The position numbers were made by a program, and so were the translations under genes. Below are positions 2,657 to 56,802 of a DNA stretch of 64,000 bases, in pieces. Within the stretch, counting starts at the first letter, position 1, and every line of letters begins with the position of its first letter. The notes beneath the pieces were generated by a model that did not search any database, was not told where the DNA came from, and saw nothing but the letters and a program-made list of their open reading frames with translations. This DNA comes from Hydrogenophaga sp. 2FB. GTDB lineage: Bacteria; Pseudomonadota; Gammaproteobacteria; Burkholderiales; Burkholderiaceae_C. The stretch covers positions 1 through 64,000 of the forward strand of contig NZ_SCML01000020.1 in NCBI RefSeq assembly GCF_005503365.1. Direction: 5' to 3'.

Positions 2657-4068
2657 AGACCTCTTTGCTTTTCAACATCTGCGTGGGGGTGGCCTTGTGT
2701 GGGCCCGGCCTGGCGCTCGCGCAAGCGCCGGCCAAGCCGGCTGCCGCTTCGGCCGCCCGTGCCGCCGAGACCCTGTCGCATGGCCATTTCAAGAACGTCG
2801 CGCTCTATCGGCCCCAGGGCGACGCGAAGGCCTTCGTGCTGCTCCTCTCGGGTGACGGCGGTTGGACGCCCACGCTCGCGGCACAGGCGCAGGCCCTGGC
2901 CGGGCAGGGCGCGCTGGTGGCCGGCATCCACACGCCGCGCCTGCTGGCCGCGCTCACCAAGGACGGTGGCGATTGCCTGCTGCCCGATGGCGACCTGGAA
3001 AACCTCTCGCACTTCCTGCAGGGCTACGCGCGCCTGCCGGCCTACTTCCCGCCCTTGCTGGTGGGCGAGGGGCAGGGCGGCGCGCTGGCCTACGCCATGC
3101 TCGCGCAAGCGCCGGCGGGCACCTTCGGCGGCGCGGTGTCGATGGGGTTCTGCCCGACGCTGGCGGTGAAGCGGCCGCTGTGCAAGGGTGAGGGTGTGCA
3201 CTTCGCGCGCGGTGCCTCGCGTGCTTCGATCCACCTGTTGCCGTCGCCCCAACTGCCCGCGCCCTGGACGGTGTTGCAACGCGACGGAGACAAGGCCTGC
3301 GCGCCCTCGGCGGTGCAGGCCTTCGTCGCGCAGGTACGGGGCGCCGAGTGGGTGAACGCGACCGGTGCCGACGCCACGCCCGCGCTGCTGGAGGCGCAAC
3401 GCAAGCTCGGCCACGCGCCCGCCGTGGCCGCCGTGACGGCACCCGCGCCCGACACCGGCGTGGCCGATCTGCCGCTGGTGCCCGTGCCGTCCACGGGCAC
3501 ATCGGACACCTTTGCCGTGCTGCTCTCGGGCGACGGCGGCTGGGCTGGCATCGACAAGGACCTGGCGGCCAAGTTCTCGGCCGCCGGTGTGCCGGTGGTG
3601 GGCTGGGATTCGCTGCGCTACTTCTGGTCGGCGCGCACGCCCGAGGGCCTGGCGCAGGACCTGGACCGCGTGCTGCGCAGCTACGCCGCGCAATGGAAGA
3701 AGGGCCGCGCGCTGCTGATCGGCTATTCACAAGGCGCGGACGTGCTGCCGTTCGCGGTGCCGCGCCTATCCGCCGCCTCGCGCGGTCTGGTGGCGCACAC
3801 GGTGCTGATCGGGCCCGGCGAGAAAGCCTCGTTCGAATTCCGCCTGAGCAACTGGCTCAAGCGCGACAGCGCCGGCCGACCGCTCAAGCCCGAACTGCAG
3901 AAGCTCACGGCCGCCAATACCCTGTGCGTTTACGGCACCGACGACCGCGACACCATCTGCCCGCGCGTGCCCACCGACCAGGTGACGCGCGTGCCGCTGC
4001 CCGGCGACCACCACTTCAACGGCGCGTACCAGAAGTTGGCCGACGAGATCCTGCTGCGCACGCGCTGA
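2653..4068 (+). CDS. acvB: AcvB/VirJ-family periplasmic hydrolase, probable lysyl-phosphatidylglycerol hydrolase
   Basis: 471 residues with a signal peptide (cleavage likely after ALA around residue 23). The protein is an internal duplication: LLLSGDGGW near residues 63-71 is repeated as VLLSGDGGW near 288-296. The second half has a nucleophile elbow GYSQGAD with Ser359 and a candidate catalytic His in GDHHFNG near 453. At the equivalent place the first half reads GEGQGG, so it lacks the serine and is probably non-catalytic. AcvB of Agrobacterium, encoded behind lpiA, is known to hydrolyse aminoacylated phosphatidylglycerol. The same gene order here, with an ATGA overlap to mprF, supports that role. 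The two-domain length matches AcvB rather than the shorter VirJ. Confidence 0.82.
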   Translation: MKTSLLFNICVGVALCGPGLALAQAPAKPAAASAARAAETLSHGHFKNVALYRPQGDAKAFVLLLSGDGGWTPTLAAQAQALAGQGALVAGIHTPRLLAALTKDGGDCLLPDGDLENLSHFLQGYARLPAYFPPLLVGEGQGGALAYAMLAQAPAGTFGGAVSMGFCPTLAVKRPLCKGEGVHFARGASRASIHLLPSPQLPAPWTVLQRDGDKACAPSAVQAFVAQVRGAEWVNATGADATPALLEAQRKLGHAPAVAAVTAPAPDTGVADLPLVPVPSTGTSDTFAVLLSGDGGWAGIDKDLAAKFSAAGVPVVGWDSLRYFWSARTPEGLAQDLDRVLRSYAAQWKKGRALLIGYSQGADVLPFAVPRLSAASRGLVAHTVLIGPGEKASFEFRLSNWLKRDSAGRPLKPELQKLTAANTLCVYGTDDRDTICPRVPTDQVTRVPLPGDHHFNGAYQKLADEILLRTR

Positions 4069-4077
4069 GGCGCGGTC

Positions 4078-4671
4078 TCAGGCCGAGAGCCGCTGCCCGG
4101 CCCAGATCGCCTGCTCCACCACGCCCCGCACGCCCAGGCGCGCCGACTCGGCGAACAGCTGGCCTTCAGGGTCGAAGGCCTCGTTGGCGCGGGACAGCGC
4201 GAACTGCTTCGGCGTCAGCCAGCACTGCAAATTCAATAGCATTGGGCTAAGGTGGGATAAGCTTCTCAGGCCACCCAGGGCGCCCGGCGAGGCGCTGAGC
4301 AGGCCCACCACCTTGCCTTCGAACGGCTTGATGCCGTTGGTCCACTCGGGGTCGGACTTGACCGGGCTGGACACCCAGTCGATGGTGTTCTTGAGCAGGC
4401 CGGTGTAGCTGCCGTTGTACTCGGGCGAGCAGATCACCCAGGCCGGATGGGCATGGAAGATTTCCTTGAGGCGGATGGCGGCGGCCGGCGTGCCACGCGC
4501 TTCCAGGTCGGCGTTGTAGATCGGAAGTTCGTAGTCGGCCAGTTCGATGTGGGTGACCTGGGCGCCCGCGTTGCGCGCCATGTCGGCGGCGATGTGGGCC
4601 AGGCGGCGGTTGTGGGACTGGGCGCGGGTGCTGCCCGCGAAGATCAGAAGAGGGAGGGGCTTGGAGGTCAT
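4078..4671 (-). CDS. NAD(P)H-dependent FMN reductase family protein
   Basis: 197 residues of flavodoxin-like fold. The N-terminal [15 protein letters not shown] is the FMN phosphate-binding loop (GSxRxxSxN type), and [18 protein letters not shown] is the conserved flavin-contacting segment of this NADPH-dependent FMN/azo/quinone reductase family. The enzyme reduces FMN, quinones or similar acceptors with NAD(P)H in the cytoplasm; the physiological acceptor is not evident. The start at MTSKPL is chosen because upstream codons have no family similarity and run into the intergenic region. It is divergent from mnmG with about 100 bases between them. Confidence 0.85.
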
Positions 4672-4772: not shown

Positions 4773-6743
4773 ATGTTGTACCCACAGGAATTCGATGTCA
4801 TCGTCGTCGGCGGCGGGCACGCCGGCACCGAGGCCGCGCTGGCCGCCGCGCGCATGGGCTGCGCCACGCTGCTGCTCACGCACAACATCGAAACCCTGGG
4901 CCAGATGAGCTGCAACCCGTCGATCGGCGGCATCGGCAAGGGCCACCTGGTGAAAGAGGTGGACGCGCTGGGCGGCGCGATGGCGCTGGCCACAGACGAA
5001 GGCGGCATCCAGTTCCGCATCCTCAACAGCTCCAAAGGCCCGGCCGTGCGCGCCACGCGCGCCCAGGCCGACCGCGTGCTCTACAAGGCCGCGATCCGCC
5101 GCACGCTGGAGAACCAGCCCAACCTCTGGCTGTTCCAGCAGGCGGTGGACGACCTGATGGTGGAGGGCGACCGCGTGGTGGGCGCGGTGACGCAGGTCGG
5201 CATCTGTTTCCGGGGCCGCACCGTGGTGCTGACGGCCGGCACTTTCCTCGACGGCAAGATCCACGTCGGCCTGAACAACTACGCCGCCGGCCGTGCTGGT
5301 GACCCGCCGGCCGTCTCGCTCTCGGCCCGCTTGAAAGAGCTGAAGCTGCCGCAGGGCCGCCTGAAAACCGGCACGCCGCCGCGGCTGGACGGCCGCAGCA
5401 TCGACTACTCGAAATGCACCGAGCAACCGGGCGACGGCGTGCCCGGCGGCATGAACGCGGACCGGCCGGTGCCGGTGTTCAGCTTCATGGGCAGCACGGC
5501 GATGCACCCGCGCCAGGTGCCGTGCTGGATCACGCACACCAATCAGCGCACGCACGACATCATCCGCTCCGGCTTCGACCGCAGCCCCATGTTCACCGGC
5601 AAGATCGAGGGCGTGGGCCCGCGCTACTGCCCGAGCGTGGAAGACAAGATCAACCGCTTCGCCGACAAGGACAGCCACCAGATCTTCCTGGAACCCGAGG
5701 GCCTGACCACGCACGAGGTCTACCCCAACGGCATTTCCACCAGTCTGCCGTTCGACATCCAGTACCAGTTGGTGCGCAGCATGCCGGGGCTGGAAAACGC
5801 GCACATCCTGCGCCCGGGCTACGCCATCGAATACGACTACTTCGACCCGCGCTCGCTCAAGAACAGTTTCGAGACCCGGCAAATCAACGGCTTGTTCTTT
5901 GCCGGCCAGATCAACGGAACCACCGGTTATGAAGAGGCCGCGGCCCAAGGCCTGTTCGCCGGCATCAACGCCGCGCTGCAATGCCGGGGCGAGGAATCCT
6001 GGCTGCCGCGCCGCGACGAGGCCTACCTCGGCGTGCTGGTCGACGACCTCGTCACCCAGGGCGTGACCGAGCCCTACCGCATGTTCACCAGCCGCGCCGA
6101 GTTCCGCCTGCAGCTGCGCGAAGACAACGCCGACATGCGCCTGACCGAAGCCGGTCGCCGCCTCGGCCTGGTGGGGGATGCGCAGTGGGATGCGTTCTGC
6201 CGCAAGCGCGAAGCTGTTTCACGTGAAACAGAGCGTCTGAAGAGCACCTGGGTGAACCCGCGCAACTTGCCTGCCGAAGAGAGCGAGCGCGTGTTGGGCA
6301 AGGCGATCGAACACGAACACAACCTGTTCGATTTGCTGCGCCGACCCGGTGTGGCGTATTCGGAGCTGGTGGGCATGGACGGTGGGAAATACACCGCGCC
6401 GCAGGTTTCACGTGAAACACTCGCCGATTTGCTGGAGCCGGTGGTGGAGCAGCTGGAAATCGCCGCCAAGTATTCCGGTTACATCGACCGCCAGAAAAAC
6501 GAGGTGGAGCGCGCCGCCCACTACGAAGGCCTGAAGCTGCCGGCCGACCTGGACTACCTGCAGGTGGTGGCGCTCTCGTTCGAGGCCCGCCAGAAGCTGG
6601 CCAAGCACCGGCCCGAGACCCTGGGCCAGGCCTCGCGCATTTCGGGCATCACGCCGGCGAGCATTTCCCTGTTGCTGATCCACCTGAAGAAGGGCGGCTT
6701 CAAGGGCTTCGCCACCTTGCCCTCTGCGGACATCGCCGCATGA
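4773..6743 (+). CDS. mnmG: tRNA uridine-5-carboxymethylaminomethyl modification enzyme MnmG (GidA)
   Basis: 656 residues, the normal MnmG length. The N-terminal FAD-binding dinucleotide fold is [21 protein letters not shown], followed by [21 protein letters not shown] and the C-terminal helical domain. With MnmE it installs the cmnm5 group on the wobble uridine of several tRNAs. The coding sequence contains two parS-like 16-mers that each force a VSRET peptide. It overlaps rsmG by four bases (ATGA) and starts the mnmG-rsmG-lysE-parA-parB block. Confidence 0.97.
6215..6230. other. parS: parS centromere site 1 (perfect consensus, inside mnmG)
   Basis: TGTTTCACGTGAAACA is a perfect 16-bp palindrome identical to the widely conserved bacterial parS consensus bound by ParB. 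It lies in the mnmG reading frame about 3.2 kb upstream of parB. Confidence 0.92.
6404..6419. other. parS: parS-like site 2 (one mismatch, inside mnmG)
   Basis: GGTTTCACGTGAAACA differs from the parS consensus only at the first base. It sits 189 bases after site 1, again within mnmG and again encoding VSRET. Confidence 0.85.
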
Positions 6744-7417
6744 GCGACTTGCGCACCACCCTGCAGGCTGGCCTGCAGCAGCTCAAGCTCGACCTCGACG
6801 CGCGCCAAGTCGACCTCTTGCTCGCTTATCTGGGGCTGCTGCAGAAGTGGAACAATGTCTACAACCTGACGGCGGTGCGCGACCCGGTCGAGATGGTGAC
6901 GCACCACCTGCTCGACAGCCTGGCCGCCATCGGCCCGTTGCACCTGCAGACGGAGGGCAGGGCGCTGCATCTGCTGGACGTGGGCTCGGGTGGCGGCCTG
7001 CCGGGCGTGGTGATCGCCATCGTTTGCCCGCAGATCCAGGTGAGCTGCGTGGACACCGTGGCCAAGAAGGCCGCCTTCATCCAGCAGGCGGCCGCCACGC
7101 TCCAGTTGTCCAACCTGCGCGGCATCCACGCCCGGGTGGAAACGCTCAATGCCCTCTCCGGGCAAGGCTATGACGTGATCTGCTCGCGGGCGTTCGCCTC
7201 GCTGGCGGACTTCGTCAACTGGTCGCGCAGCGCGCTCAATCCCGACGGCGGCGTGTGGATGGCCATGAAGGGCAAATACCCGACCGACGAACTCGCGGTC
7301 CTGAAAACCGACGCCCCTGCGGTGGACGTGTTTCACGTGGAACAGCTCCAGGTGCCCGGCCTGGATGCCGAGCGTTGCATCGTCTGGATGCGGCCGGCCG
7401 CTGGCGCCGTGGCCTGA
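6740..7417 (+). CDS. rsmG: 16S rRNA (guanine527-N7)-methyltransferase RsmG (GidB)
   Basis: 225 residues. [19 protein letters not shown] and the SAM-binding glycine loop [17 protein letters not shown] (about residues 77-93) are diagnostic for RsmG, which methylates N7 of G527 in the 16S rRNA 530 loop. The start ATG overlaps the mnmG stop (ATGA), implying translational coupling. The 3' part contains a third parS-like site encoding VFHVEQ. Confidence 0.96.
7329..7344. other. parS: parS-like site 3 (one mismatch, inside rsmG)
   Basis: TGTTTCACGTGGAACA matches the parS consensus except for G at position 12. It lies in frame in rsmG, 802 bases before parA. Confidence 0.78.
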
Positions 7418-7507
7418 GTGTCACACCCCGGCGGACCGGGGCGCTGGAAGAGGGGCGGGCACCAAACCCTCACGTAAACTCGACCCTCCACTTCACGGGG
7501 TTCCACC

Positions 7508-8122
7508 ATGTTCGGCATCGCAGATTACGGCGCTTTTGTGGCCGCCATCATCGTCTTTCTGGCCATTCCGGGGCCGGGCAATCTGGCGCTGATCACCTCC
7601 ACCGGCAAGGGCGGTATCCGCGGCGGCATGGCCGCCACTTTTGGCGTGATCGCGGGGGACCAGGTGCTGATGTGGCTGGCAGTGGCTGGCGTGGCGGCCC
7701 TGTTGGCGGCCTATCCGGCGGCGTTCAGCGCGGTGCAGTGGCTGGGCGCGGCTTACCTGGCCTGGTTGGGCTGGAAGATGCTCAGCGCCAAGCCGGGTGA
7801 TGCGCCGGTGCTCAACATCCGCCCGCGCCAGTATTTCCAGCAGGCGGCCGTCATCACCTTGCTCAACCCGAAGGCCATCGTGTTCTACATGGCCTTCTTC
7901 CCGCTGTTCGTGGACCCGGCCCGCCACCAGGGCCTGGCCACCTTCGGCGCGATGGCCGTCACCGTGGCCATCCTGACCTTTCTGTATGGCCTGACGGCCG
8001 TGCTGCTGACCCACTTCCTGGCCGCGCGCATGCGCGCCAACCCCACCATCGGCCGCACGCTGGAAAAGCTGGCGGGTGTCTTTCTCATCGGTTTCGGCAT
8101 CAAGCTGGCCCTCTCCAAATAA
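7508..8122 (+). CDS. LysE/RhtB family amino-acid exporter
   Basis: 204 residues with about six hydrophobic segments and the family's N-terminal signature IPGPGNLALITSTGKGGIRGG followed by a membrane-embedded GVIAGD. LysE/RhtB proteins export amino acids or related small molecules across the inner membrane; the substrate is not readable. It sits between rsmG and parA, with parA starting eight bases after its stop, so it is probably cotranscribed with the partition genes. Confidence 0.88.
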   Translation: MFGIADYGAFVAAIIVFLAIPGPGNLALITSTGKGGIRGGMAATFGVIAGDQVLMWLAVAGVAALLAAYPAAFSAVQWLGAAYLAWLGWKMLSAKPGDAPVLNIRPRQYFQQAAVITLLNPKAIVFYMAFFPLFVDPARHQGLATFGAMAVTVAILTFLYGLTAVLLTHFLAARMRANPTIGRTLEKLAGVFLIGFGIKLALSK

Positions 8123-9480: not shown

Positions 9481-10401
9481 ATGGTCACCAAAAAACCCAA
9501 GGGCCTCGGCCGCGGACTCGAAGCCCTGCTGGGCCCCAAGGTGGAAGAGGGCGCAACGGCGCAGGCCGCCGTGGCCGGCTCGCCCAACGCGCTGCCGCTG
9601 ACCGAACTGGTCGCCGGCATCTACCAGCCGCGCACGCGCATGGACGAGGGCGCGCTGTACGAGCTGGCGGAGTCGATCAAGGCCCAGGGCGTGATGCAGC
9701 CGATCCTGGTGCGCCAGCTGGCCGACGGCCCGAACGCCGGCAAATACGAAATCATCGCGGGCGAGCGGCGCTTCCGTGCGTCGAAGCTGGCCGGCCTGGA
9801 CAGCGTGCCCGTGCTGGTGCGCGACGTGCCCAACGAGTCCGCCGCGGCCATGGCGCTGATCGAGAACATCCAGCGCGAAGACCTCAACCCGCTGGAAGAG
9901 GCCCATGGCTTGCAACGCCTGGTGAAAGAGTTTGGGCTTACTCACGAGCAGGCTGCCCAGGCGGTGGGCCGCTCGCGCAGCGCCGCGAGCAACCTGCTGC
10001 GCCTGCTGCAACTGGCCGAGCCGGTGCAGACCATGTTGATGGCCGGCGACCTCGACATGGGCCACGCGCGCGCGCTGCTGGCCCTGGACAAGGCCAGTCA
10101 GATCACGGCCGGCAACCAGATCTCGGCCAGGAAAATGTCGGTGCGCGAAGCCGAGAGCCTGGTGAAAAAGCTCGGTGCCGAGTTCGCGCTCGCACCGCAA
10201 AAGCTCAAGAAAGAGAAGTCGCGCGACATCCGCCGCGTGGAAGAAGAGCTGGCCGACCTGCTGACCGCCGAGGTCGAGGTGCGGGTGAAGAAGCGCGTGA
10301 AGCGCCACGGCCGCTTCGAAGAGATGGGCGAACTGGCAATTCAGTTCGGCTCGCTGGACGAGCTCAACGGCCTGATCGACAAGCTGCGCGGCGCGCGCTG
10401 A
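9481..10401 (+). CDS. parB: Chromosome partitioning protein ParB (Spo0J), CTPase and parS-binding protein
   Basis: 306 residues. The N-terminal region has IAGERRFRASKLAGL, the GERRxRA-type motif now known as the CTP-binding box. A helix-turn-helix follows (LTHEQAAQAVGRSRSAASNL) and then a C-terminal dimerisation segment. ParB loads at parS, spreads as a CTP-dependent clamp and recruits ParA and SMC. The start MVTKKPKGLGRGLEALLG is the usual ParB N-terminus with GAAGG upstream; the upstream in-frame ATG at 9463 would add six untypical residues. Four candidate parS sites lie within 3.3 kb. Confidence 0.97.
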   Translation: MVTKKPKGLGRGLEALLGPKVEEGATAQAAVAGSPNALPLTELVAGIYQPRTRMDEGALYELAESIKAQGVMQPILVRQLADGPNAGKYEIIAGERRFRASKLAGLDSVPVLVRDVPNESAAAMALIENIQREDLNPLEEAHGLQRLVKEFGLTHEQAAQAVGRSRSAASNLLRLLQLAEPVQTMLMAGDLDMGHARALLALDKASQITAGNQISARKMSVREAESLVKKLGAEFALAPQKLKKEKSRDIRRVEEELADLLTAEVEVRVKKRVKRHGRFEEMGELAIQFGSLDELNGLIDKLRGAR

Positions 10402-10402
10402 T

Positions 10403-11491
10403 TCAATCGCGGTTGCGGCGCTCGTCGCCGCGCCCGTTGCCGCCGCGCCCTCGTTCTTCCTCGAACCGCCGCTGACCGGGCTGCTCGCGGTCCTGACCCC
10501 GGTTCATGGGCTCGGCGCGTGTGGGCTGTTGCTGCTGTTGGGGTGGTTGCCGAGGCTGAAAGTCTGGTTGCCTCGGTGATTGCCATTGTGGTTGTTGCCG
10601 GGGCTCGGGCGCCGCGCGCCGTTCGGGTGCTTCAGGTCGGCGCTGCTCGGGTTCGAAGGGGCGCATCGGCGGCTGCGCCTCGCGCCTGTCGAAGCGAGGT
10701 TCGTTGCGCTCGACGGGCATGGGCGGCCGCTCGGCGCGCTCGGGTCGGCGCACACCGTCGGGCTCTCGTGGCGCCACCTGTTGCGGGGGCGCGGCGCGTT
10801 CGTCGAAGCGGGGTCCCGGGCGGTCCTGGCGCGGCATCGGCGCTGGTTCAACCCGATCGGGCCGGCGCACTTCCTCCCGCTGCAGCGGTCGGTTGTCGGG
10901 CCGTTGCGGTGATGCTGGCGGTGGCGGGGCCGCAAGCTGCGCCCGCACCGTCGGGTTGCGGGGCTGGTAGCGGTAGTGGTCGTTGCGGATGCGGTCTTGC
11001 ACCGCGAATTGCGGGTAGCGGCTCTGCGGGTACTTGCGCTGGTAGTCCGGCAGGGGAGCGGGGGCGGGTGCCTTGGCGCGGTCCCAGTGGTCCCACCCCG
11101 AGCGGCGCTGCGCCCAGCCGGGTCCCCAGTGATCACCCCAGCGCGGCGGCGCGTCGACCCGCCAGTAGGTGAAGTACATGGGCGGTCGGCGGTAGTAACG
11201 CACCGGCACGCGCAGCAGGTACACCGGCACGTACTCGGGTCCGATGATGAACCACGGTCCGTTGTACCAGCTGCTGTAGTACCAGTTGTCGTCCTCGAAG
11301 ACCCAGTACAGGCCGTCGTAGAAGAAGAAATTGCCCTGCACCTCTGGCGCGTAGTACACCGGGTAGCCGGGCACGAGTTGCAGTTGCGGGTACACCGGCA
11401 GGTGGATACCGATGTTGACGTAGACCTGGGCCTGCGCCGCGGGAGGGACGGGCAGCAGCAGGAGCGGCAGGGCGAGGAGCAGGTGGCGCAT
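10403..11491 (-). CDS. YXWGXW-repeat secreted protein with Pro/Arg/Gln-rich tail
   Basis: 362 residues with a clear signal peptide (MRHLLLALPLLLLPVPPAAQAQ). A compact aromatic region follows (about residues 22-130, rich in Tyr/Trp, including VFEDDNWYYSSWYNGPWFI and RWGDHWGPGW), resembling the YXWGXW domain. The remaining 230 residues are low-complexity, rich in Pro, Arg, Gln and Glu, and probably disordered. The product is presumably periplasmic or envelope-associated; no enzyme activity is known for the family. The stop is one base past the parB stop, tail to tail. Confidence 0.75.
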   Translation of the reverse strand: MRHLLLALPLLLLPVPPAAQAQVYVNIGIHLPVYPQLQLVPGYPVYYAPEVQGNFFFYDGLYWVFEDDNWYYSSWYNGPWFIIGPEYVPVYLLRVPVRYYRRPPMYFTYWRVDAPPRWGDHWGPGWAQRRSGWDHWDRAKAPAPAPLPDYQRKYPQSRYPQFAVQDRIRNDHYRYQPRNPTVRAQLAAPPPPASPQRPDNRPLQREEVRRPDRVEPAPMPRQDRPGPRFDERAAPPQQVAPREPDGVRRPERAERPPMPVERNEPRFDRREAQPPMRPFEPEQRRPEAPERRAAPEPRQQPQWQSPRQPDFQPRQPPQQQQQPTRAEPMNRGQDREQPGQRRFEEERGRGGNGRGDERRNRD

Positions 11492-11709
11492 GGCGGTCTC
11501 GATCCATCGAACGTGCTCACGCCACGGGCCTGCCGCGGAATGCGTGGGTCGGGCGCGAGCCACAGGATCAACATACGCCGAGGAGCGGGTGCGGTCAATG
11601 CGCTGGCGCACACACCCTGATCCGCTGCGCCGCCGGCCTGGCCGCTGAATGCAAGGGGCGTTCCAGCGGCTCAGCGCATGCCCAGGCCGGTCGGACCCGG
11701 ACGGACACA
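11492..11709. other. 218-base intergenic region upstream of the YXWGXW gene
   Basis: Lies between the start of the YXWGXW gene and the end of phoD, both on the minus strand. It should hold the promoter of the former and the transcript end of the latter. I see no convincing hairpin with a U-tract, RNA gene or short coding sequence here. Confidence 0.4.
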
Positions 11710-13332
11710 TCAACCCACTTGCTCGGTACCCGGTCGGCGGTCGTTCACGACGAAGCGCGCGAGCGTGCTCACGCCGCTGGCCTCTTTGCTCACGTCGTCC
11801 AGCACGCGCAAGCTCGTGGTCCATTCCGTGGGCGTGACGTCGGCGATCACATAGCCGCGCTGGTCGCTGCGCGCCAACAGGATGTGCGGGTTCTTCGCGC
11901 GGATGGCATCGGTGGTCGACTGCGCCACGCCGCTGGCCGAGCTGAGCGAGGTGCCGCAGAACTCGCTGGCGATCACCGGTGAATCGGGCCGCGCGAAATC
12001 GGCATGCACTTGGCACACATAGTTTTGATGGATGTCGCCGCCCAGAAAGACCGCATTGCGCGGTGCCTTGGCCTGCATCGCGTCCAGCACGCGCTGGCGC
12101 GCGGCCGGGTAGCCGTCCCACGTGTTGGGGTTGAAACTCTCTTCGGGCGCGGCCTTGTAGTTGCGCTGCGAGAAGATGGTCTGCTGCGCCAGCACGCTCC
12201 AGCGCGTGCGCTCGCCCGCGGCATCCTGCGCCAGGCCCTCGTCGAGCCACCGCTCCTGCACGGTGCCCAGCAGGGTGCGCTTGGGGTCGGCGCGCGCGGG
12301 GCAGGTCTGGTTGGAGATGGCGCCGCCCGCACGTTCGCCGGGCACGCGACACGCCTCCAGGTCGCGGAACTGCCGCGTGTCCATCATGTGGAAGGTGGCC
12401 AGGCGGCCGTAGGACGTGCGCGAATGGACACGCACGGCCTCGTTCGAGCCCAGGCCTTGCAGACCGCTCACGAGCGCGCTCGCGCGCAAGGGCATGTTCT
12501 CGTAGAAGGCCTGGTAGCCGCCCTGGCGGCGTTGCAGGAACGACGCCTCGCTGCCCGTGCCGAACAGGCCGGCGTAGTCGTTCTGCACTTCATGGTCGTC
12601 CCAGCTCACCACCCAGGGGCACGCCCGGTGCATCGCCTGCAGGTGCGGATCGCTCTTGTACAGCGCGTAGCGGTCGCGGTAGTCCTGCAGGTTCTCCGCC
12701 AGGCGCAGCGTGTGCGTGCGCGCCAGCGGTGTGGCAGGCGGCCTGGCCGGCATGGCGTATTCGTAGATGTAGTCGCCCAGGAACAGCACCAGGTCTGGGT
12801 TGTCCTTGGCCATGTGGCGGTAGCCGGCGTAATGGCCTTGCTCCCAGCGCTGGCAGGAGGCGTAGGCCAGGCGCATGCGCGCCACCAGCGCATCGGCGGC
12901 GGGCACGGTGCGGGTGCGCGCCACGGGGGTGACCGCGTCGCCATGCATGAAGCGGTAGAAGTACCAGCGGTCGGGCCGCAGGCCCGTCACCTCCACGTGC
13001 ACGCTGTGACCCAGCGCCGGCTCGGCCGTGGCCTGGCCCGATTGCACGATGCGCGTGAAGGCTTCGTCGTCCGCCACCTGCCATTGCACGGTCACGGGAC
13101 CGGTCAGCGGCGCGCCCTCGTGGGCCGCGCTCGCGATGCCGGGCACGGGGCCGCCCAGCAAGCGCGTCCACAGCACGAAGCCGTCCGCGCTGGGTGCGCC
13201 GCTGGCCACGCCCAGGGGAAAGAGGTGGCGCTGCCGCAGCGTCTGGGACCAGGCCCAGCGCGGCAGGCTGGTGGCCACGGCCGAGGCCGCAGCGAGGCGC
13301 AGCAGATCCCGCCGGTTCGATGGGTGTGTCAC
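11710..13332 (-). CDS. phoD: Alkaline phosphatase D (PhoD-like phosphodiesterase/phosphatase)
   Basis: 540 residues. The N-terminus NRRDLLRLAAASAVATS is a twin-arginine signal, so the enzyme is probably exported folded. PhoD metallophosphatase landmarks follow: GVASGAPSADGFVLWTRL, YASCQRWEQGHYAGYRHMA, FLGDYIYEYA, SWDDHEVQNDYAG and FLGGDIHQNYVC, giving the Asp/His metal ligands. PhoD enzymes are Ca/Fe-dependent phosphatases and phosphodiesterases used in phosphate scavenging. The start codon is GTG with GGGAGG three bases upstream. No Pho box is evident. Confidence 0.92.
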   Translation of the reverse strand: MTHPSNRRDLLRLAAASAVATSLPRWAWSQTLRQRHLFPLGVASGAPSADGFVLWTRLLGGPVPGIASAAHEGAPLTGPVTVQWQVADDEAFTRIVQSGQATAEPALGHSVHVEVTGLRPDRWYFYRFMHGDAVTPVARTRTVPAADALVARMRLAYASCQRWEQGHYAGYRHMAKDNPDLVLFLGDYIYEYAMPARPPATPLARTHTLRLAENLQDYRDRYALYKSDPHLQAMHRACPWVVSWDDHEVQNDYAGLFGTGSEASFLQRRQGGYQAFYENMPLRASALVSGLQGLGSNEAVRVHSRTSYGRLATFHMMDTRQFRDLEACRVPGERAGGAISNQTCPARADPKRTLLGTVQERWLDEGLAQDAAGERTRWSVLAQQTIFSQRNYKAAPEESFNPNTWDGYPAARQRVLDAMQAKAPRNAVFLGGDIHQNYVCQVHADFARPDSPVIASEFCGTSLSSASGVAQSTTDAIRAKNPHILLARSDQRGYVIADVTPTEWTTSLRVLDDVSKEASGVSTLARFVVNDRRPGTEQVG

Positions 13333-13386: not shown

Positions 13387-14826
13387 TCAGAGCGCGAAGA
13401 TCTTCCCCGGGTTCAGGATGTTGTCCGGGTCGAGCGCGCGCTTGATGGTGCGCATCATGTCGACCGCGCCGGCGCCGGCTTCGGTGACCAGGAAGTCCAT
13501 CTTGTGCAGACCCACGCCGTGCTCGCCGGTGCAGGTGCCTTCCAGGCTGAGCGCGCGCGCCACCAGCTTGTGGTTGAGCTCCTCGGCCAGCGTGTGTTCC
13601 TCGGGCTTGTGGGGGTCGATCAGGTAACCGAAGTGGAAGTTGCCGTCGCCCACGTGGCCGACCAGGAAATACGGCAGGCCCGAGGCGTCGGCCTCGGCCA
13701 CCGAGTCGAGCAGGCAGTCGGCCAGGCGCGAGATCGGCACGCAGGTATCGGTGGAGATCGCGCGGCAGCCCGGCTTGCTCTGGATCGCGGCAAAGTAGGC
13801 GTTGTGCCGCGCAGTCCACAGGCGCGTGCGCTCCTCCGGCGTGTCGGCCCATTCGAACGCGTTGCCGCCGAATTCGCTGGCGATCTCCTGCACCGTCTCG
13901 GCCTGCTCCTTCACGCTCAATGGCGAGCCGTGGAACTCCATGAGCAACATGTTTTCTTCGCGCAGGCCCAGCTTGCTGTGCACGTTGACCATGCGCACGC
14001 TGTTGTGGTCGATCAGCTCGCAGCGCGCAATGGGCACGCCCAGCTGGATCACCTGGATGACGGTGCGCACGGCGGCCTCGATGGTCGGGAACGAGCAGGT
14101 GGCGGCCGAAATGGCTTCGGGCAGGGGATAGAGCTTGAGCGTGATTTCGGTGATCACGCCCAACGTGCCTTCGCTGCCCACCATCAGGCGCGTGAGGTCG
14201 TAGCCGGCGCTGCTTTTCTTGGCGCGGGACCCCGTGCGGATGACCTCGCCGCGCGCCGTGACCACTTCGAGCGCGAGCGCGTTGTCGCGCATGGTGCCGT
14301 AGCGCACCGCGTTCGTGCCGCTGGCGCGTGTGGCGCACATGCCGCCGATGGAAGCGTCCGCGCCCGGGTCGATCGGGAAGAACAGGCCTTCGCTCTTGAC
14401 CGCCTCGTTGACGGCCTTGCGCGTCACGCCGGGCTGCACCGTCACCGTGAGGTCTTCGGCGTTGATCGACAGCACGTTGTTCATGCGGCTCAGGTCGATG
14501 CTGATGCCGCCTTGCACCGCGAGCAGGTGGCCTTCGAGCGACGAGCCCGCGCCAAAGGGAATCACCGGAACCCGGTACTGCGCGGCCAGTGCGACGGTGT
14601 CGGCCACGTCCTGCGTGCTTTGCGCGAAGACCACCGCCACCGGGGGCGGCACCTCGTAGACCGACTCGTCGCGGCCATGTTGTTCGCGCACCGCCATCGC
14701 GGTGGAACACTGGGCGCCAAACCGGGCCTGCAGCGCCGCGAGGAACTCGGGTGCAATGGCGCGCTGGTGGACCTCGGGCGCGAGATGGTTCAGGGTGGCG
14801 GGGGCGTTCATGGGGCTTGTCTCCAA
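13387..14826 (-). CDS. FAD-binding D-lactate/glycolate-type oxidoreductase (GlcD/DLD family)
   Basis: 479 residues. An N-terminal PCMH-type FAD-binding domain carries VPVIPFGAGSSLEGHLLAV and the GADASIGGMCATRASGTNAV loop. The C-terminal FAD-oxidase domain has VGHVGDGNFHF (metal/active-site His) and TCTGEHGVGLHKM. The family oxidises D-2-hydroxyacids such as D-lactate or glycolate and passes electrons to cytochrome c or quinone. METSPMNAP may start at either Met (14826 or 14811). A close paralogue lies at 62201-63649. Substrate is not determinable from sequence. Confidence 0.88.
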   Translation of the reverse strand: METSPMNAPATLNHLAPEVHQRAIAPEFLAALQARFGAQCSTAMAVREQHGRDESVYEVPPPVAVVFAQSTQDVADTVALAAQYRVPVIPFGAGSSLEGHLLAVQGGISIDLSRMNNVLSINAEDLTVTVQPGVTRKAVNEAVKSEGLFFPIDPGADASIGGMCATRASGTNAVRYGTMRDNALALEVVTARGEVIRTGSRAKKSSAGYDLTRLMVGSEGTLGVITEITLKLYPLPEAISAATCSFPTIEAAVRTVIQVIQLGVPIARCELIDHNSVRMVNVHSKLGLREENMLLMEFHGSPLSVKEQAETVQEIASEFGGNAFEWADTPEERTRLWTARHNAYFAAIQSKPGCRAISTDTCVPISRLADCLLDSVAEADASGLPYFLVGHVGDGNFHFGYLIDPHKPEEHTLAEELNHKLVARALSLEGTCTGEHGVGLHKMDFLVTEAGAGAVDMMRTIKRALDPDNILNPGKIFAL

Positions 14827-14896
14827 TCGCGGTGGGGAAATCCGCCGGCCAGTTTACGCCCTGGCACCGCCCCTGTGCGGCGCCTCGCAGGCCCCA

Positions 14897-15124
14897 TCAG
14901 AGCCGCTGCGCCGTGGGGACGATCGTGCGGGAAGACAAGGGGACCGGGCGGGGCGCATCGGTCAGGCGCGAGGGCGTGAACGCCGAGATGGCATGGCGCG
15001 TGGGCGGGGCGACCTGCACGCTGACGATACCGGCCAGTCCCAGCGCGCAGGCGGCGATCAGTCGCACGCTGCGTTGCTCGAATTCGGAAACGGACAAAGG
15101 GGACTGGATGCGAAATCGGGACAT
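14897..15124 (-). CDS. Small single-span membrane protein of unknown function
   Basis: 75 residues. One hydrophobic segment, VRLIAACALGLAGIVSVQVA (about residues 20-39), follows a polar N-terminus; the tail is Ser/Pro/Arg-rich. A good AGGAG lies eight bases before the ATG, which supports real translation. No family recognised. It stands alone, upstream of the minus-strand oxidase gene and divergent from the adenosyltransferase gene. Confidence 0.6.
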   Translation of the reverse strand: MSRFRIQSPLSVSEFEQRSVRLIAACALGLAGIVSVQVAPPTRHAISAFTPSRLTDAPRPVPLSSRTIVPTAQRL

Positions 15125-15337
15125 GAGAGGACTCCTGTCGAAAGGTTGGAACGAGGGGGCATTACCGCCCGGTTCGCGCCCATGTGCCAGCGCTTTTGCC
15201 TGCCGTTGCCTGCGTCAATAGTCCTTTGCCTCGCTCACATTTCCCTGCATGTCGTTACGGGTGCACCCGCTCACGCACAATGGGTGCCGTTTCAAGGTTT
15301 TACATCCATCCGCAGCGAGAAAGAGAGAGGCAAACCC
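15125..15337. other. 213-base divergent intergenic region upstream of the adenosyltransferase gene
   Basis: Separates the small membrane protein gene from the cobalamin adenosyltransferase gene and must contain promoters for both. I looked for B12-riboswitch features and did not find them. AGAGAGAGG just before 15338 is the likely ribosome-binding site. Confidence 0.35.
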
Positions 15338-15907
15338 ATGGGCAACCGACTTACCCAGATCGCCACCCGCACCGGCGACGCCGGCACCACCGGCCTGGGC
15401 GACAACACCCGCGTCTCCAAGGACAGCCTGCGCGTGCACGCGATGGGCGATGTCGACGAACTCAACTCGCACATCGGCATGCTGCTGTGCGAAGACGTGC
15501 CCGACGGCGTGCGGCTGGTGCTGGTGGAGATCCAGCACCAGCTCTTCAACCTGGGCGGCGAGCTGTCCATTCCCGGTTTCGAGTTGCTCAAGCCCGAGGC
15601 CGTGCTCGCGCTCGACCAGGCGCTGGCGACCTACAACGAAACGCTGCCGCGGCTGCAGGAGTTCATCCTGCCCGCGGGCAACCGCGCGGCCAGCCAGGCG
15701 CACGTGTGCCGCACCGTGGCGCGCCGCGCCGAACGCGCCGTGGTGGCGCTGGGCGACGCGGAAGATCTGAAGGAAACACCGCGCCAGTACCTCAACCGCC
15801 TGAGCGATCTGATGTTCGTGCTCGCGCGCGTGCTCAACCGCATGAACGGCGGCGACGACGTGTACTGGAAGAGCGAGCGCCTGGCCAAGTCCAACGACGC
15901 ACCATGA
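15338..15907 (+). CDS. PduO-type cob(I)alamin adenosyltransferase
   Basis: 189 residues. The N-terminal ATP-binding signature ATRTGDAGTTGLGDNTRVSKD and the C-terminal PAGNRAASQAHVCRTVARRAER and YLNRLSDLMFVLARV are diagnostic of the PduO/MMAB class, which makes adenosylcobalamin from cob(I)alamin and ATP. It overlaps the next gene by four bases (ATGA). No B12-dependent mutase lies nearby, although half of a B12-dependent methionine synthase is in the window. Confidence 0.93.
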   Translation: MGNRLTQIATRTGDAGTTGLGDNTRVSKDSLRVHAMGDVDELNSHIGMLLCEDVPDGVRLVLVEIQHQLFNLGGELSIPGFELLKPEAVLALDQALATYNETLPRLQEFILPAGNRAASQAHVCRTVARRAERAVVALGDAEDLKETPRQYLNRLSDLMFVLARVLNRMNGGDDVYWKSERLAKSNDAP

Positions 15908-16257
15908 AAGCCACGGCGCTGGTGGCACTGGGCGTCGCTGCCCTGTGCGTGGGTCCTGCGGTGGCGCAGGGCAAGAAGGCGGCCAACAACAAGCCCAGCG
16001 AAGTGACGCTGGTGTGCGAGGCCGCCTACCAGCCCGCGCGCACCACCTGGACGCGCAGCGTGCGCATCGGCTACGACAAGAAGCGCGTGCGCTCGGTGCA
16101 CATCGACGGCGTGCCGGTCTACAGCTTCTCGGTGCAGGACACGGTGATCCTCACCTCGATCGACAACGAGCGCATCCAGATCGACACCGCCACCCAGACC
16201 TGGACCAGCGATTTTCGTGGGCAGGCGACCGCGCAGGGGCGGTGCGAGCGGAGTTAG
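15904..16257 (+). CDS. Conserved exported protein of unknown function
   Basis: 117 residues with a signal peptide (MKATALVALGVAALCVGPAVAQ). The mature part is about 95 residues, apparently beta-rich, with one cysteine pair candidate (VCEAAY and GRCERS). No family recognised. The start overlaps the adenosyltransferase stop (ATGA), so it is translationally coupled, but nothing in it suggests a cobalamin role. Confidence 0.72.
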   Translation: MKATALVALGVAALCVGPAVAQGKKAANNKPSEVTLVCEAAYQPARTTWTRSVRIGYDKKRVRSVHIDGVPVYSFSVQDTVILTSIDNERIQIDTATQTWTSDFRGQATAQGRCERS

Positions 16258-53889: not shown

Positions 53890-54044
53890 GGCGCGATTGT
53901 GGCGCAGCCGTTGTGCAGCGCCATGAGGGCAAAGCCTGACAAATTGCCCGAACACGCCGTATCACTCTCTTCCATGATTCATCAAGCTGGGTTATGGTCC
54001 GCTCAAATGCCAACCCAAGGGCCGGCAGTTCAGGAGGTGTCTGG

Positions 54045-56438
54045 ATGAACAAGCGCTCGCCGCAGTCTGCGGTACTGGCGGTTCGCACCGTCCCCGATGC
54101 GCGCGAGGGCCGCGGCCCGATCGCGGGCGAGGGGCGTGTGTTCGTGCCGCACGGTTTGCGCCAGGCGCCTGTGCTCGACCTCATGTGCTCGCACTTCGTG
54201 CTCACGCTGGCCGCGCGCCAGGGCCCGCGCTTCAATGTGCGGCGCGACCTCAACACCTTGCTCTCGCTCGCCGGCCGGCACCTGGTGTGGCCGCAGACCG
54301 TGCTGCTGCGCCTGCGCGAATTCCTGCAGCGCCGTTGCAAGGACAACGAACTCTGGAGCGGCCACGATGGCCTGACCACCAACGCCTTCATGGAACGCTA
54401 TGGCGTCTGGCGCGGCCCTTATGAAGAAGGCACGCTGTTCTTCTACCTGGACGAGTACGCCAAGGAGTCGCCGAAAGACCTGCTGTCGGTCCTGGCGGTC
54501 ACCGGTGAATGGCTGAGCCACTCGTTGAAGAAGCAGTCCACGCTGGTGGAAAAGAACATCGATGCGCTCGCCGGCCTGCTGCAGCTCAATCGCGCCGAGC
54601 GCGCGCTGCTGCTCTACGGCACGCTCGCGCGCTACCAGCGCGACCTGCGCTCCATTCTGGTCGAGTTCAAGGTGAACAACGCACCCGAGGCCTATGCGGC
54701 GATCGCCGATGTGGCGGGTGTGAAGGCCAGCGAGGTCGGCGAAGCGCTGCGCGCCGGCTCGCGCCTGGAGCGGATCGGCATGGTGGAGAACCTGATCTCC
54801 GAACACAACATCACCGACCTGGCCGACCTGATGAAGGTCAGCGAAAAACTGCCGCCGGTGCTGATGCGGGAGTACCGCACGCAGAGCGAGCTGATGGCGG
54901 TGTTCACCCGACCCGCCGCGCGCTCGGCGCTGAGCGAAAAGGACTTCGACTACGTGGGCGAAGACGTGCGCCTGCTCTGCGGCCTGCTGCGCGAAGCGGT
55001 GGCGCGCAAGGAGCCGGGCGTGAACGTGCTGCTCTACGGCCCGCCCGGCACCGGCAAGACCGAACTGGCGCGCGTGGTGGCCAACGCCGCCGGCCTGGAA
55101 CTGTTTGAAGTGGAGTACGCCGACCGCGACGGCAACGCGCTCTCTGGCCGCGACCGCTACCGCTCGCTGCAGATCGCGCAGGTGTTCCTCAAAGGCACGG
55201 CGCATTCGGCGTTGCTGTTCGACGAAGTGGAAGACGTGTTCCCGCCGATCTCCAGCGAGGCCGCGCAGATCATGGCGCGCGCCGAACACGTGGCCGCGCC
55301 GCACACCGGCAGCGTGAGCGGCAAGGCCTGGGTCAACCAGATCCTGGAAACCAATGCCGTGCCCACGCTGTGGGTGACCAACCGCATCGAACAGATCGAC
55401 CCGGCGTTTCGCCGCCGCTTCGCCTACCACCTCGAGCTCAAGAGCCCGCCGCCCGGCGCGCGCGAGCAACTGGTGCGCAAGACGCTGGAGAGCGCGCCGG
55501 TGTCCGACGCGCTGGTGGCGCGGCTGACCGAACGCAAGGGCCTCACGCCTGCGCAGATACGCACCGCGCTGCGCTTCGCGCAACTGGCCGCGAGCCCCGC
55601 CAAACCCAAGGCCCGGCGCAGCAGCAAGGCGCCGCTGTTGCTGGACGACCTCATCGAGCGCCAGCTCAAGAACGCCGACCTCGCCCTGGGCCGCAAGCCC
55701 GATCTGCTGCAGCGCCCCAGCGTCACGCAGTACAGCCTGGACATGCTCCACATCGAGACGCGCCACGAACTGCCGCGCGTGATCGCCGCGCTCAAGGCGC
55801 GTGGCCACGGTTGCCTGTGTTTCCATGGCGCACCCGGCACCGGCAAGACCGCGCTCGCCGAGCACATCGCGCAGCAGCTGGAGCGCCCGCTGATGATCCG
55901 CCGCGCGAGCGACCTGATCAGCAAATTCGTGGGTGAAACCGAGCAGCAGATGGCCGCGATGTTCCGCGAAGCCGAGGCCGAGAAAGCCGTGCTGTTGCTC
56001 GACGAGGCCGACAGCTTCCTGCAGGACCGCCGCGGCGCGCAACGCACGTACGAAGTGACCGAAGTCAACGAAATGCTGCAGGGCATGGAGCGCTTTGCCG
56101 GCATCTTCATCTGCACCACCAACCTGATGGACAGCATCGATCAGGCCGCGTTGCGGCGCTTCACGTTCAAGATCCGCTTCAAGCCGCTGACGTCGGCGCA
56201 GCGCCAGAAAATGTTTGTGGTCGAAGCGCTGGACGGCGACGCATCGAAACTGGAGCCGGCACACGCCGCGCGGCTGACCAAGCTCGATCAGCTGTGTCCG
56301 GGCGATTTCGCGGCGGTGAAGCGGCAGGTGGAAATTCTGGCGGAAGCGCTGGCGCCAGAGGAGTTCATCGCTCAGCTCGAAGCCGAGCACCGCATCAAAC
56401 CCGAGGTGCGCGAAGCCCGGGGCATCGGCTTTACCTGA
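54045..56438 (+). CDS. Tandem AAA+ ATPase of unknown function
   Basis: 797 residues with two AAA modules. A mostly helical N-terminal region of about 310 residues has no recognised domain. Module 1: Walker A GPPGTGKTE at residue 332, Walker B LLFDEVED with Asp near 393, sensor VTNRIEQIDPAFRRRF with an Arg finger. Module 2: Walker A GAPGTGKTA at 595, Walker B LLLDEADS near 653, sensor TTNLMDSIDQAALRRF. Both modules look catalytically complete. AGGAGG lies eight bases before the ATG at 54045. It resembles no Clp, Lon or FtsH layout and has no protease or Zn domain. Not recognised beyond the AAA family. Confidence 0.88.
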   Translation: MNKRSPQSAVLAVRTVPDAREGRGPIAGEGRVFVPHGLRQAPVLDLMCSHFVLTLAARQGPRFNVRRDLNTLLSLAGRHLVWPQTVLLRLREFLQRRCKDNELWSGHDGLTTNAFMERYGVWRGPYEEGTLFFYLDEYAKESPKDLLSVLAVTGEWLSHSLKKQSTLVEKNIDALAGLLQLNRAERALLLYGTLARYQRDLRSILVEFKVNNAPEAYAAIADVAGVKASEVGEALRAGSRLERIGMVENLISEHNITDLADLMKVSEKLPPVLMREYRTQSELMAVFTRPAARSALSEKDFDYVGEDVRLLCGLLREAVARKEPGVNVLLYGPPGTGKTELARVVANAAGLELFEVEYADRDGNALSGRDRYRSLQIAQVFLKGTAHSALLFDEVEDVFPPISSEAAQIMARAEHVAAPHTGSVSGKAWVNQILETNAVPTLWVTNRIEQIDPAFRRRFAYHLELKSPPPGAREQLVRKTLESAPVSDALVARLTERKGLTPAQIRTALRFAQLAASPAKPKARRSSKAPLLLDDLIERQLKNADLALGRKPDLLQRPSVTQYSLDMLHIETRHELPRVIAALKARGHGCLCFHGAPGTGKTALAEHIAQQLERPLMIRRASDLISKFVGETEQQMAAMFREAEAEKAVLLLDEADSFLQDRRGAQRTYEVTEVNEMLQGMERFAGIFICTTNLMDSIDQAALRRFTFKIRFKPLTSAQRQKMFVVEALDGDASKLEPAHAARLTKLDQLCPGDFAAVKRQVEILAEALAPEEFIAQLEAEHRIKPEVREARGIGFT

Positions 56439-56457: not shown

Positions 56458-56802
56458 TCAGTGCATCAGGGCCATCGGGCCCGTGGGCAGTTCGTCCGAC
56501 GAATAGTCGGGGTGGTGGGTCATGAAGAAGCGCAGCTTCTGGTCCAGGCGGGACAGGCGGACGGTGGCCACGCTTTCGCAATGGTGCTTGGAGATCAACT
56601 CGAACAGCTTGCTGCGCATGAACCACAGGTCTTTGGGCGTCAGGCAGGACGCCAACGCCGACTGCAAACGGGTGCGCACCGGGTCCTTGATGTCGGCCAT
56701 CGCTTGGTGAAATTCGTCGACAAGAAAGTCCAGCTCCAGCACCTGCGTGTCGTGGTACTCGGCTTTCTGGGTCTTGCCAAACCATGGCAACTTGAAAAAC
56801 AT
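56458..56802 (-). CDS. Conserved protein of unknown function (114 aa)
   Basis: 114 residues, no membrane segment. It begins MFFKLPWFGKTQKAEYHDTQ and is helix-rich with TPKDLWFMRSKLFELISKHH, ending SSDELPTGPMALMH. GGGAG lies seven bases before the ATG. It converges on the tandem-AAA gene 19 bases away. No family recognised. Confidence 0.75.
   Translation of the reverse strand: MFFKLPWFGKTQKAEYHDTQVLELDFLVDEFHQAMADIKDPVRTRLQSALASCLTPKDLWFMRSKLFELISKHHCESVATVRLSRLDQKLRFFMTHHPDYSSDELPTGPMALMH

Follow-up and report, generated by a model that had tools for sequence, protein, structure and literature searches.

Several described ATPases carry two tandem classical AAA modules, among them p97/VCP-Cdc48, Rix7, NVL and Drg1 (AFG2), and the N-domain of the CDC48 family is a double-psi-barrel. 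Other AAA proteins are known from defence systems, for example IetA, which in the IetAS system is accompanied by an adjacent subtilisin-like protein, IetS. The names and roles of the AAA motifs (Walker, sensor-1, arginine finger, pore loop) are used below as is customary. The gene analysed here lies in a 64,000-nucleotide stretch of the Hydrogenophaga sp. 2FB genome (the whole stretch is referred to as the window) and had been singled out, in an initial annotation made from the letters alone, as a tandem-AAA ATPase that might be an undescribed remodelling machine. Its features are collected in Table 1.

Table 1. Positions in the window of the tandem-AAA ATPase gene, its parts and an adjacent open reading frame.
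Feature	Positions	Strand	Remarks
Ribosome-binding site AGGAGG	54032-54037	+	7 bases 5' of the ATG at 54045
Tandem-AAA ATPase gene	54045-56438	+	797 codons and stop, uninterrupted frame; Pfam, dN/dS
Helical N-terminal stretch, residues 32-165	54138-54539	+	no counterpart of residues 32 to about 107 among distant relatives (profile comparison)
Family-wide N-domain, residues 166-295	54540-54929	+	in relatives weakly similar to the winged-helix variant PF22977
D1 AAA module, residues 296-515	54930-55590	+	Walker A 332-339, Walker B 390-394, N446, RR 457-458; without aromatic pore-loop motif
D2 AAA module and C-terminal part, residues 559-797	55720-56435	+	Walker A 595-602, pore loop KFVG 627-630 (aromatic), Walker B 650-654, N693, RR 704-705
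114-aa ORF	56461-56802	-	between the ATPase gene and recQ; no Pfam match

The protein start is similar in relatives (MNKRT in L022, MAKRS in L074). The opposite strand of the gene is also open; homology to the ATPase was found on the + strand. Compared with nine chosen Hydrogenophaga-type loci, the ATPase gene had a dN/dS of 0.056-0.21, which was below that of ilvA in eight of the nine loci, of recQ and of the PEP carboxykinase gene in all nine, and of the MscS-type gene in all seven loci where the latter is present. The frame on the + strand is therefore under selection, and the ATPase gene is under strong purifying selection. Elsewhere in the Hydrogenophaga sp. 2FB genome, the best match to the protein covered the AAA core alone, and a DNA search of E. 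coli at the distant setting gave no match to the gene.

The presence of two complete AAA modules, proposed in the initial annotation, was confirmed. The Pfam AAA family (PF00004) matched the protein twice (E 6.5e-46 for the protein), and Walker A, Walker B, the sensor-1 polar residue and the arginine-finger region were found in both D1 and D2, as in tandem (type II) classical AAA proteins. That the modules differ in their sensor and arginine regions, as the initial annotation noticed, was also borne out by motif comparison. D1 and D2 are only 26% identical over 179 columns; therefore, they are no recent duplicates of one another and are old partners.

Conservation of the motifs was read from an alignment of 30 chosen rows (A1); a second alignment (A2) had 45 rows. 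In the 30 rows formed by four core proteins (the window type) and 26 relatives, K601, D653, E654, N693, R704 and R705 of D2 were invariant. In D1, K338, D393 and R458 were present in all 30 rows and E394, N446 and R457 in 29, the single exception being a relative with a broken D1 (L143). In the pore-loop segment, 29 rows have an aromatic-[VIL]-G motif in D2 and one row has it in D1, where the segment is mostly acidic (for example D-x-D-G). One module with a threading loop and one that keeps its ATPase residues and has no such loop suggest a p97-like remodeller, which would form a two-tier hexamer of p97/Cdc48 build and may act as an ATP-driven unfoldase or disassembly factor with no protease attached. 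D2, with its aromatic pore loop and all catalytic residues checked, would be the pulling (threading) ring; D1 would be the supporting ring, and probably assembles, gates or paces the machine, because its ATPase residues are kept and the aromatic pore-loop motif is absent.

The AlphaFold2 model of the full protein had a mean pLDDT of 74.5 and a pTM of 0.40. Predicted D2 could be superimposed on D1 of p97 (Z about 19, rmsd 3.0 over 211 residues, about 20% identity). When D1 and D2 were jointly aligned to p97 the rmsd rose to 13-15, and with this value and the pTM of 0.40 the mutual placement of the two modules in the model is unsupported. Residues 1-29 formed a low-confidence tail, followed by helices from about residue 36 to 320, with the best scores at 31-160; folded separately, residues 32-300 gave a poor model (pLDDT 49.5). 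The listings of solved structures and of folds were filled by AAA domains, so that families absent from them mean nothing.

The region in front of D1 had been regarded as a single, unannotated helical domain of 310 residues. It proved to be neither one domain nor without relatives: besides the low-confidence tail, it comprises at least two parts, a longer helical stretch and a segment shared by the wider family, and this later part matched the N-domain of the distant relatives at 97.9% in a profile comparison. The family-wide part begins at about residue 165 for most relatives, with tblastn matches starting from residue 103 to beyond 280 and the profile match from about residue 108. In the rows of A1, 196-294 residues precede the D1 Walker A in relatives vs 321-338 in core proteins; the core N-terminus is therefore longer. 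One family member, on the minus strand of locus L118 (G400, 1450-4506), has an open frame of 1019 residues and perhaps a long N-terminal addition.

A profile search of the N-terminal part, which had been proposed as a check, gave a divided result. The N-part of the window protein itself matched nothing in the Pfam scan, PF22977 included. Ten N-parts were scanned: PF22977 was matched by L141 (19.1 bits, E 0.0011, below the curated 27 bits) and by L137 (12.1 bits, E 0.15, also under the cut-off). Profile to profile, the N-domain of the relatives aligned with PF22977 at 88.6% (E 2.7e-6, for a single comparison), comparisons with a WYL profile serving as negative controls (0.1-0.3%); the core N-domain profile compared with PF22977 proteins reached 0.3%. 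The link to PF22977 thus rests on the relatives, since the protein's own N-part is unmatched and the core profile scored at this level. The AAA ATPases that carry PF22977 share this N-domain likeness with the relatives, and differ from the present family in having one Walker A per frame in seven of eight loci (none by pattern in the eighth), as well as in their distance from the core N-domain. The claim that the protein has no DNA-binding domain is therefore insecure, given the weak winged-helix likeness of the relatives, its own N-part being unmatched. On the N-terminal face of the proposed hexamer, the winged-helix-like segment and the longer helical stretch may choose the substrate.

This weak likeness raises the question of whether a winged-helix-like N-domain binds DNA and lets the ring act on DNA or on nucleic-acid-bound complexes, such as those of replication or repair. 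Island partners of the relatives, described below, are often nucleases and helicases, and recQ is a near neighbour of the window gene, both of which would suit such a role. The PF22977 match is nevertheless under the cut-off in relatives and absent for the window protein, recQ is convergent and on the other strand, and a pore loop with an aromatic residue is the kind that threads proteins. We therefore hold action on nucleic acids to be very improbable, and retain the protein remodeller proposed above.

Comparison with known families was based on the best 25 of 53 Pfam, the best 25 of 95 NCBIfam and the best 25 of 48 PHROG matches. Among the best 25 Pfam and the best 25 NCBIfam families all matches fell within the AAA region, those of the FtsH and Lon models being due to their AAA part only, in agreement with the proposed absence of a protease or peptidase domain. 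The solved structures among the matches listed (p97/Cdc48, Rix7, NVL, Drg1) were likewise matched in their AAA cores only: the window protein has the two tandem modules of these proteins and a D2 that fits p97 D1, and differs from them in that the matches lie in the AAA parts, with about 20% identity, and that its D1 has no aromatic pore-loop motif. Membership of the CDC48 family (TIGR01243) was rejected at 84.9 bits vs a cut-off of 802.65, and the N-part is predicted to be helical in the full model. IetA is similar to the AAA core of D2 (E 3.6e-43) but its models, of 262-395 positions, match within the AAA core, and membership was rejected at 135.3 bits vs the equivalog cut-off of 510. The annotation of the regions opened names no subtilisin-like gene, and none of the seven window neighbours scanned with Pfam matched an IetS-type protein. 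D2 also resembles TRIP13 defence-system models, and here too the match is in the AAA core.

The only family among the matches listed that spans the N-domain and both modules was phrog_10401 ('ATPase', phage-derived), which aligned with residues 155-796 over profile positions 71-667 of 667 (E 2.6e-102); it differs from the window protein in that the match begins only at residue 155. The family phrog_10401 has no assigned function, and no full-length similarity to a characterised AAA protein was found among the matches listed. No account of this ATPase family was found in the portions consulted of the open-access literature, PMC12839542 and PMC12458937 included. In conclusion, the AAA machine is a familiar one, and its combination with this N-domain, the island company of the relatives and the fixed core branch are without description in the open-access literature searched. 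The proposal of an undescribed remodelling machine is accordingly plausible, 'undescribed' agreeing with this search and 'remodelling' being suggested by the motifs.

The ATPase is near-universal in Hydrogenophaga, as it was found in 41 of 44 good genomes and in 60 of 67 overall. Within the organism's own bacterial family 126 of 200 genomes matched at E 1e-40, ten of which have, as read from the table, only relatives of 32-38% identity. Close copies (>50% identity) were confined to this family, apart from a short 53% piece (L123) in one genome of the class. The chromosomal setting of the core copies is also constant: an ilvA-like gene is found in divergent orientation at 71 of 80 core loci and recQ in convergent orientation at 67, and 11 of the 13 loci without recQ have less than 2.3 kb of contig downstream. 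A gene kept at a fixed place in nearly every Hydrogenophaga genome must have a useful role. Carriage of the window copy by a mobile element, or its recent insertion, was rejected because of synteny across genera.

In the window both flanking genes, in this ilvA-like and recQ setting, are on the opposite strand; therefore, the ATPase gene is probably transcribed alone. Seven window neighbours were scanned with Pfam and matched PEPCK, 4HBT, a mechanosensitive (MS) channel, a PLP enzyme, a RecQ-type helicase and a homocysteine S-methyltransferase, the 114-aa ORF being unmatched. This ORF was found at 24 of the 80 core loci, all among the closest. A core-type copy, 73% identical, was observed on a plasmid of Diaphorobacter sp. 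HDW4B (L136, 6001-8295; replicon of 761 kb), where tail-fibre and DNA polymerase II genes lie upstream of it; the core gene has thus apparently moved on at least one occasion.

The relatives, which are 24-41% identical to the window ATPase, are patchily distributed and often plasmid-borne. At E 1e-30, 21 of the 274 class genomes matched, two of them from the same genus; with the PHROG profile, matches at 1e-40 were obtained in 37 of the 249 phylum genomes, many of them partial and in the AAA region, and in none of the 14 control genomes. Matches were found in 1056 plasmid records, of which two at 80% cover. In viral contigs the protein query alone found no confirmed relative and the alignment query found 80 loci, mostly AAA-core matches; L162-L165, L167 and L169 were used in A2 and L162-L163 in the region counts. 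Sixteen plasmid regions were opened (plasmid matches H40-H41 and H49 onward were left out), comprising L136, two regions without annotation and 13 annotated regions of relatives.

WYL-domain proteins were encoded in 10 of these 13 regions. The other neighbours were PD-(D/E)XK nucleases, UvrD, SNF2 or DEAD helicases, a PLD protein, HEPN, ADP-ribosylglycohydrolase, Sir2 and DUF2779 proteins, and in one region BREX pglZ and brxD lay beside the relative. From the 13 annotated regions (L137-L148, L150), taken as discovery data, 49 neighbour queries were drawn and applied to a test set of 25 other regions (L149, L151, L162, L163, L242-L262) and to a random control of 20 regions from 10 genomes, placed at round-number coordinates. 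WYL was found in 13 of the 25 test regions, with agreement between tblastn and a ten-protein WYL profile, vs none of the 20 random regions; this has a chance of 7e-5 if regions are independent, an independence that is incomplete because the relative regions come in part from one genome or are near copies. Overall, WYL was present in 23 of 38 relative regions, in none of 81 core regions and in none of the 20 random regions; four of the 15 relative regions without WYL (L243, L249, L257, L163) are shorter than 11 kb. The view that the ATPase has no obvious partner gene is therefore correct for the window copy and incorrect for the wider family, as the neighbourhood analysis suggested for relatives has revealed.

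Partners other than WYL differ between regions. In the 38 regions, source regions counted, DUF2779 was found in seven, HEPN, large PD-(D/E)XK, UvrD and Sir2 in five each, and ADP-ribosylglycohydrolase in four. None of the 49 queries matched in the 20 random regions, and in the 80 core loci UvrD only was matched, at two loci (L049, L064). A protease partner was rejected: none recurs in the annotated regions opened and none is among the 49 queries. When ten island neighbours were submitted to PADLOC, WYL, several helicase models (best 9e-21, partial), a weak ZacB and one weak Cas4 were recognised, four neighbours were unmatched, and no complete known defence system was recognised among the ten. 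WYL proteins are found outside defence too. For CBASS, an immune system, control by a WYL factor is reported in PMC9122588.

Some regions of relatives have an unusual organization. Two divergent family ATPase copies lie about 1.9 kb apart in L250 (G421, 6258-8078 and 9993-11855; WYL match at 1945-2895), and L256 (G405) has two family copies within 20 kb (92-1900 and 14376-16088), with ADP-ribosylglycohydrolase and DUF2779 matches between them and a WYL match alongside. In L140 (9820-15585), L148 (8533-14542) and L141 (11395-15737) the ATPase stands next to a row that encodes a protein of some 400-470 residues, a PLD-like protein of about 650 residues and a helicase. The rows of L140 and L148 are alike by sequence and that of L141 by annotation order only; with weak PADLOC matches to ZacB, ZacC, DrmD and DpdE, this row is possibly an undescribed defence set. 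On a Leisingera thetidis plasmid (L142, 6590-8593) the annotation splits the ATPase into two adjacent pieces, and this copy is perhaps broken; WYL and ADP-ribosylglycohydrolase genes lie alongside.

The defence-type company of the relatives, together with the resemblance of D2 to the IetA and TRIP13 models, would also be expected if the core gene itself had an antiphage or anti-plasmid activity, acting alone and fixed in the bacterial family, and the island relatives acted with partners. We consider this improbable, as the gene is near-universal in the genus, has a fixed place and a dN/dS as low as that of household genes; in addition, the Pfam-matched window neighbours are metabolic, channel or repair genes, and the similarity to IetA and TRIP13 falls within the AAA core, the IetA match being far below its cut-off.

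A tree of 63 rows placed 16 core proteins (15 loci chosen from 80, and the window protein) on one side of a branch with a support of 100. Rows of 560 residues or less, L116 (short) and L142 were kept out of this tree, and fragments L122-L126, L130-L133 and L135 were never entered. Core branches are short and those of relatives mostly long. The tree is unrooted, a midpoint root was used for drawing, and the rows beside the core clade, on long branches, were flagged as unsure. WYL is absent from the regions of the two nearest to the core clade, L143 and L257 (10.4 kb in the case of L257), and the next nearest, L138, has WYL 256 bases from the ATPase; WYL may therefore have been lost before domestication.

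The reverse course, in which an old bacterial household remodeller, engaged in p97-like protein quality control or in complex disassembly, was later captured by islands, accounts equally for motifs, synteny and selection, and the tree has no true root with which to oppose it. Core copies nevertheless form a single shallow clade amid deep, diverse relatives, and copies above 50% identity are, bar the short L123 piece, limited to one bacterial family. We regard this course as rather unlikely. The order 'island first, household later' is itself a reading and not a result, because the root is a midpoint only and long branches adjoin the core.

We give about even credence to the reading that combines these observations, namely a p97-like two-tier hexameric remodeller of a WYL-linked, defence-type family, a stand-alone copy of which became fixed in Comamonadaceae. 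The family is patchy, and its other members lie in defence-island company, with WYL, nucleases and helicases of various kinds, HEPN, Sir2 or ADP-ribosylglycohydrolase; one lineage would have gained a longer N-terminus, lost its WYL neighbour and settled as a single gene that is fixed and for the most part inherited vertically. Against it, a household gene spreading into islands would look alike. A broader proposal, which we put forward tentatively as possible and on the doubtful side, is that this tandem-AAA motor is common to WYL-regulated mix-and-match islands, its partners there (nucleases, helicases, HEPN, Sir2 and ADP-ribosylglycohydrolase) being interchangeable, and that in Comamonadaceae one copy was turned to household use, its longer N-terminus choosing the substrate. 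The function of the ATPase is named by none of the libraries searched. Should the relatives in islands prove to be a motor common to WYL-regulated systems, undescribed defence systems could be sought with them as a marker, and the core copy would offer a testable case of a defence component turned household protein.
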